Below the pieces are notes generated by a model. It saw only the letters and a program-made list of their open reading frames with translations. It searched no databases and was not told the origin of the DNA. A stretch of 64,000 nt of DNA. Origin: Muribaculaceae bacterium Isolate-110 (HZI) (GTDB lineage Bacteria; Bacteroidota; Bacteroidia; Bacteroidales; Muribaculaceae). A program made the translations under genes and the position numbers. Position 1 is the stretch's first letter, and the number at the start of each line of letters is the position of its first letter. Of the stretch, positions 20,602 to 54,740 are shown piece by piece. The stretch covers positions 1-64,000 of the forward strand of contig RIBL01000009.1 of the NCBI GenBank assembly GCA_003762875.1. Direction: 5' to 3'.

Positions 20602-20661
20602 GGGCCAGGCGGGAATTCCGGTGCATCAATATATTAATGCTCCGTAATTCCCGCCTGGCCC
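20602..20661. repeat. Short inverted repeat at the left edge of the repeat region
   Basis: Perfect 16-base arms GGGCCAGGCGGGAATT (20602-20617) and its complement (20646-20661) enclose a loop with GGTGCATC ... ATTAATGC. The sequence GTGCATCA-ATTAAT recurs at 20696-20712, 21130-21152 and in variant form near 52720-52736. It lies beyond the promoter of the divergent gene and could also form a cruciform. Confidence 0.7.
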
Positions 20662-20782
20662 AACTTTTGTTTCTTATGGCCCAAGCCGAAGTTACGGTGC
20701 ATCACAGATTAATACCCGCCCCAATTCTGCCTGACATAAGCGTCCCCAGGCATCCAATGCATGCCTCTCTATATCCGCAAGG

Positions 20783-21122
20783 GCGTCCGCAGGCATCCTG
20801 TGCATACCAGACTACATCCCGCAAGGGCGTCCGCAGGACGCAGATTTGATCGTAACTGGGTACACCGAAGCGCAGCGGAGGTGTGCCCGGACAAATGACA
20901 CAATACAATGATGGCGTCCGTTAGGACGCCGATTATCGGGCGTGATAGCTGATACAGCTCCCTCTCACGATAACCGATGTCCTGTCGGACATCATTTCTT
21001 TGTAGCGTGCCACTCCGGGCACACCTCCGTTGCGCTTCGGTGTACCCAGTTACGATCAAATCTGCGTCCTGCGGACGCCATTGCGGGATGTAGTCTGGTA
21101 TGCACAGGATGCCTGCGGACGC
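20783..21122. repeat. Large inverted repeat, 109-base arms (107 of 109 matching)
   Basis: Left arm 20783-20891 and right arm 21014-21122 are reverse complements with two mismatches. Within each arm are small palindromes such as GCGTCCGCAGGACGC. The 122-base centre carries two further hairpins, GCGTCCGTTAGGACGC and GATGTCCTGTCGGACATC. No transposase gene or protein-coding frame of quality is present, and no clear target-site duplication is visible. It resembles a non-autonomous palindromic element (MITE-like) or a composite of short REP-like units. Confidence 0.8.
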
Positions 21123-21174
21123 GTATGCCAGGAGCATTAATACATGATGCACCGGGATTTCGGCTTGGGGTAAG

Positions 21175-21216
21175 CTTTTGTTTCTTATTGAGCTTATGAA
21201 ACTTTTGTATCTCCTT
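21175..21216 (-). repeat. Dispersed spacer repeat, copy 2
   Basis: The reverse complement of this stretch (AAGGAGATACAAAAG, then TCATAAGC and AATAAGAAACAAAAG) matches the segment at 112-154 with few changes. It directly borders the large inverted repeat. Confidence 0.6.
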
Positions 21217-54533: not shown

Positions 54534-54628
54534 CTACACCTTAAAGCCCCCTGTTACCTCTGTCCTATATAGAGAATAACTCCGGAGATTATTCCGGCTT
54601 GACCATATTGTGCACATGCATCAGAAGG

Positions 54629-54740
54629 ATGTCCCGGCAGGGACATCAGGAGATTAATAGCCGTATGCATCCGAGCCTGGAAGGCTCAGGATGCATACGG
54701 AAATATGAGATGCAAGATGGATGTCTGAAAGACATCTTGT
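54629..54740. repeat. Cluster of short palindromes
   Basis: Three hairpins in about 110 bases: GATGTCCC-GGCA-GGGACATC (54629-54648), an arm pair around CCGTATGCATCC ... GGATGCATACGG (about 54660-54700) and GATGTCTGAAAGACATC (54719-54735). The first and third share the GATGTC...GACATC form with the hairpin in the centre of the large inverted repeat near 20975. No gene is apparent in 54534-54812. Confidence 0.6.

Follow-up and report, generated by a model that had tools for sequence, protein, structure and literature searches.

The region 20602–21216 of the window (the whole stretch of DNA analyzed, 64,000 nucleotides) was initially annotated as a single composite inverted-repeat region. Its repeats are real, but the span combines three repeat families, and the main element is a 494-bp piece at 20678–21171, bounded by 36-nt terminal inverted repeats (Table 1); within these ends, the inverted-repeat comparison paired 20680–20713 with 21136–21169. 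The two 109-base arms around 122 bases that had been noted were confirmed as an inverted repeat with 98% complementarity (20783–20891 and 21014–21122), as were the two further hairpins within the spacer (20913–20930 and its mirror copy, 20978–20995), to which a third, central hairpin has to be added. The inverted repeat reported to the left is also present, although not as a 16-bp repeat; it is a 60-bp hairpin (20602–20661) with 30-nt arms that are 90% complementary. The dispersed motif on the right proved to be 40 nt long and to have many further copies in the genome.

On either strand, 20602–21216 folds far below 20 dinucleotide-shuffled versions (z −29 and −40), and the inverted repeat is real and far beyond chance. 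The arms are 98% identical, while other copies are only 69%–89% alike to the window element, which suggests a recent duplication or gene conversion inside the palindrome. No recognizable gene was found inside 20678–21171, in agreement with the lack of coding content first described; the mechanical ORFs inside the main element, of up to 127 aa, look like by-products of the palindrome.

Table 1. Features of the repeat region and of one related unit elsewhere in the window
Feature	Position	Strand	Basis
60-bp hairpin, two ISL3-type terminal repeats head to head	20602–20661	.	20/25 and 18/25 to IS terminal repeat
Left direct-repeat copy AACTTTTGTTTCTTAT, touching the left end of the element	20662–20677	+	Direct-repeat comparison
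Left terminal inverted repeat GGCCCAAGCCGAAGTTACGGTGCATCACAGATTAAT	20678–20713	+	22/25 to ISL3-type IS end
Left 109-nt arm	20783–20891	+	Inverted-repeat comparison
Left three-hairpin REP-like unit	20825–20936	+	Covariance model, 111 bits
Parts of the left unit	H1 20827–20841; GTAAC foot 20852–20856; H2 20857–20890; H3 20913–20930	+	Unit alignment
Doublet center, itself a hairpin; site of a Y1 transposase gene in sister species	20931–20977	.	
Right three-hairpin REP-like unit, inverted	20970–21080	-	Covariance model, 106 bits
Right 109-nt arm	21014–21122	-	Inverted-repeat comparison
Right terminal inverted repeat, minus strand reads ACCCCAAGCCGAAATCCCGGTGCATCATGTATTAAT	21136–21171	-	21/25 to IS end
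Right direct-repeat copy AAGCTTTTGTTTCTTAT, touching the right end of the element	21172–21188	+	Direct-repeat comparison
End of second dispersed repeat (GGAGATACAAAAG family), 40-nt motif	21175–21214	-	Many copies in the genome
Three-hairpin unit of the type flanking the genome's own Y1 gene	54626–54736	+	88% identical to a flank of the genome's only Y1 gene

Structure and dispersal of the three-hairpin unit

The core of the element consists of two ~110-nt units in inverted orientation, each with three hairpins. A full-length alignment of 35 units from nine genomes gave the order H1 (GGCGTCC-GCA-GGACGC), GATTTANTCGTAAC, H2 (a long stem), a spacer, H3 (GGCGTCC..GGACGCC), and GATT, with a conserved GTAAC at the 5′ foot of H2, the middle hairpin. 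Both units of the window were found by the covariance model at E about 1e-22. Changes on both sides were observed at 13 of the 24 pairs (RNAalifold). Among 27 units, 97.7% of the cells pair, and 89 cells carry a change on both sides, compared with 31 in shuffles and 7–16 in slid structures. Because of this level of pairing and the excess of double changes over both controls, the pairing of the unit is conserved beyond its sequence.

Covariation and a very stable fold would also be expected of a long structured RNA or a transcript-level element, such as a terminator or an mRNA stabilizer, kept for its RNA fold. Recognition of single-stranded DNA, however, accounts for the pairing constraint equally well. 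Moreover, no Rfam match above threshold was obtained at the element, the sequences differ widely between genomes, the copies lie at unrelated loci, and units stand in inverted orientation on both sides of transposase genes, all of which make an RNA element extremely improbable.

The search of the whole genome for the arm sequence that had been proposed (3.42 Mb in 100 contigs, searched piecewise) found several relatives of the window element elsewhere, so the element is not unique. In a comparison set of one genome per species, DNA-level matches were present in 10 of the 27 genomes of the genus, Duncaniella (Muribaculaceae), including the genome under study. The covariance model detected 8 unit copies in the latter and 80, 64, 55, 42, 34, 28, 23, 14, 13, and 13 units in ten other Duncaniella genomes. 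No match was obtained in the plasmid and phage collections. At the loci examined in G020, G021, and G008, nearly all units form inverted pairs, in which H3 is innermost and the center measures 19–26 nt; the window doublet has the same layout but a longer center. Doublets at different loci of G020 are up to 98% identical, and no consistent target duplication was seen around them by eye. Further small hairpins were observed around the units of G025 (L216, L217) and G026 (L218).

The initial suggestion to look for empty sites did not yield a clean one in the two genomes concerned: in G006 the intergenic region also lacks the neighboring gene, and in G011 the corresponding intergenic region carries a different doublet. 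The G011 doublet (L177, 2400–2900) differs in unit type, resembling the flanks of the Y1 genes in L065/L066, and is located close to the same tRNA gene, which suggests that the neighborhood of this tRNA gene is a favored site.

Association of the units with Y1 transposase genes

Window-type units also occur in G020, G021, and G008 as an inverted pair flanking a Y1 transposase gene, which is placed where the doublets have their short center. The layout H1-H2-H3-center-H3-H2-H1 is identical with and without the gene, and the stems of the gene flanks and of the doublets in the same genome are homologous, not identical. The genome under study has a single Y1_Tnp gene (PF01797; C25:191010–191348), and its flanks are inverted three-hairpin units of a sequence other than the window type. 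That unit type recurs at about six further places in the genome.

The type of unit follows the clade of the transposase. In a tree of 50 transposases, one clade (support 100/99) stands out: the flanks of all its 10 members reach a score of 44 bits or more under the window-unit model, compared with 2 of the 40 transposases outside it (Fisher 6e-9, or 6e-7 without the loci used to build the model), at a threshold picked post hoc, after the scores had been seen. A gene of the cognate clade was not found in the genome assembly under study, and its eight window-type units are therefore probably orphans; orphan REPs whose transposase was lost are known, according to PMC6006769.

Flanking inverted repeats are common among these genes. 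Repeats beyond those of shuffles were found, and clearly so, at 24 of the 27 testable Y1 genes of the genus, and also at 64 of 80 further genes from across the Bacteroidota, Chryseobacterium included; these 80 were the closest relatives among GTDB species genomes, and two of them repeat genomes of the genus set. Of 196 flanking arms, 39% carry TA[AG]C at the 5′ foot of a stem of 6 bp or more; the figure is 5% for shuffles and likewise 5% for the 3′ foot. The foot is thus directional, like the GTAG foot of REPs. The units beside Y1 genes in Chryseobacterium (L134, L146, L150, L152, and L158) comprise H1, an ATAGC foot, and H2, and the arrangement is therefore not confined to the Bacteroidales; RayT genes in Chryseobacterium are mentioned in PMC11194056, without REPs. 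The Y1 proteins are mostly 142–155 aa long, with an HUH motif and the Y-x-x-x-Q-x-x-HH signature of TnpA_Y1 subclass 1.2; they scored below the cut-off of profile NF047646 and above that of NF033573 (IS200). The protein of G020 has 143 aa and that of the genome under study 146 aa.

We read the core of the window element as a REP/RAYT-like doublet without its transposase. Against this reading stand the missing cognate gene in the genome itself and the large window-type populations of G025 (L216, L217), G026 (L218), and G012, in which no Y1 gene was found; G003 also has a large population, with only a divergent Y1 gene.

Terminal repeats shared with an ISL3-type insertion sequence

The ends of the element and the left hairpin both match the first 25 nt of an IS end (Table 1), and the element was for this reason delimited as 20678–21171, with the hairpin being, by its sequence, a solo pair of ISL3-type ends. 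Matches to the pattern CCAAGCCGAAATTNCGGTGCAT numbered 22 in the genome, against 0 for the reversed control. A near-identical 172-nt IS end is located at twelve contig ends, and the 37-aa tail encoded in it matches DDE_Tnp_ISL3 (PF01610), with ISAon1 as the best match. This ISL3/ISAon1-type IS, with at least 12 copies (contig ends including those of L229, L231, and L232), breaks the assembly, its body being missing from the contigs and only the 172-nt end being present. In the sister genomes G001 and G002, the ISL3-type IS has ORFs of 324 aa, and its two-ended copies (L293, L302) are bordered by the 8-bp duplications GTATGATA and ATATTTAG.

When target duplications were sought, as had also been suggested, none of 8 bp could be seen beside the window element. 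What touches its two ends is an imperfect direct repeat of 16/17 bp, which could have arisen as a duplication or could belong to a tandem copy of the motif on the right.

These ends bear on two other explanations. If the element were a pure REP/REPIN-like doublet moved by a Y1 transposase, as the same layout with and without the transposase gene would allow, its ISL3-like ends would have to be coincidental or a later adjacent insertion. Both ends, however, match the IS at 21–22 of 25 positions in the correct orientation, with none expected by chance in the window, and we consider this explanation very unlikely. Alternatively, the terminal repeats alone could matter, in a pure ISL3-type MITE with the doublet as incidental filling, since they match a resident multi-copy IS and the relative at C79, by eye, has terminal repeats without a doublet. 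Such a MITE appears unlikely, given that genomes with other ends or none also conserve the doublet, with compensatory changes, and that its units flank transposase genes by clade. The doublets of G020, G021, and G008 are framed by other ends, GAGGCTGTGTCAAAA, and neither frame was seen around the copies examined in G025 and G026. No autonomous IS could be matched to the GAGGCTGTGTCAAAA ends; the contig ends there fall inside the doublets. The spread of the doublets in G020, G021, and G008 could be due to this shell and not to the Y1 enzyme.

A probable layered element and its relation to known systems

The most satisfactory account of the window element, and in our opinion a likely one, is a layered non-autonomous mobile element, with a REP-like doublet as its core and an ISL3/ISAon1-type shell. 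The non-autonomous mobile element first suggested for this locus stands, on the dispersed relatives in this and sister genomes, the units beside a transposase gene, and the terminal repeats of a multi-copy IS. Unit homology and dispersal, conserved pairing, the flanking of transposase genes, co-inheritance of unit type and clade, and the sharing of terminal repeats were observed, and from the anatomy of the element we infer recognition, cleavage, and movement by the Y1 or the ISL3 enzyme. The core units would be the DNA partners of one Y1 (HUH) transposase clade within TnpA_Y1 subclass 1.2. A unit in single-stranded form, for instance on the lagging-strand template, would fold and might be recognized through H2 together with the GTAAC that lies at the 5′ foot of this hairpin, and gene-less doublets could then be moved or copied in trans, as REPs/REPINs are by RAYTs. 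The ISL3/ISAon1-type ends, in turn, would allow the ISL3 transposase resident in the genome to mobilize all 494 bp as a MITE.

This core resembles the REP/RAYT systems (REPtrons, REPINs/BIMEs; TnpA_REP class 2) in its dispersed palindromic units and inverted doublets, in a unit-specific Y1 transposase flanked by units (for the window type, in sister species), in a short conserved motif at the 5′ foot of a hairpin, and in the presence of orphans where the transposase is missing. It differs from them in the size of the unit, which has ~110 nt and three hairpins where theirs is a single hairpin of 20–40 nt, in a GTAAC/TA[AG]C foot instead of GT[AG]G, and in a transposase with Y-x-x-x-Q-x-x-HH instead of the Y-x-x-x-NP of class 2. 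The TIRtrons/TIRYTs, as described in PMC3733652, are also similar, being Y1 genes with long flanking inverted repeats, some of them self-complementary, and with dispersed dimers; the 26 TIRYTs described are placed in subclasses 2.1, 2.2, and 2.5, and none in subclass 1.2, in PMC6006769. The same founding paper describes subclass 1.2 as proteins of about 143–150 aa with HUH and Y-x-x-x-Q-x-x-HH, from Bacteroidota and of low copy number, like those found here, and generally without terminal hairpin features (REP ‘no’). In contrast to that listing, most genes tested here have inverted hairpin-rich flanks. CGTC-tagged REPs, described in PMC3733652, are small GC-rich palindromes that also occur in Bacteroidetes, and the units here contain GCGTCC; those REPs, however, are single hairpins without a dedicated transposase. 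As for the ISL3-family (ISAon1) MITEs, the terminal repeats of the element match IS ends, while its interior is a REP-like doublet and the window element is without the 8-bp target duplication. In the REP/RAYT literature covered (including PMC6006769, PMC3733652, and PMC8266576), in which subscription journals are thinly covered and a prior description is possible, neither REP-type repeats for subclass 1.2 nor three-hairpin units were found.

The units are thus a candidate DNA substrate for a transposase subclass described as being without REP partners, and they would extend REP-like systems to dominant gut bacteria. They also supply many natural pairs of transposase and hairpin, whose covariation may reveal the rules of recognition, and with the core nested in IS-type ends, one element would, unusually, be shared by two transposition systems. 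More tentatively, and with somewhat more doubt than confidence, we propose that the subclass 1.2 Y1 transposases and their three-hairpin units with the TA[AG]C foot constitute a REP-like system in its own right, widespread in Bacteroidota, whose gene-less doublets have repeatedly become MITE cores with at least two unrelated kinds of IS-type ends. If this is true, single-strand HUH and double-strand DDE chemistries could both move such elements.

The second dispersed repeat, at 21175–21214, is apparently the site into which the element was inserted, and its motif occurs in tandem elsewhere. It belongs to an inverted-repeat family with the ends GGAGATACAAAAG...AAACAAAAG, of about 45 bp, some copies of which are single-ended or tandem. 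Copies were observed at L017 (541–860), L020 (2560–2820), and L022 (560–770), and in the window at 115–154 and 21171–21214.
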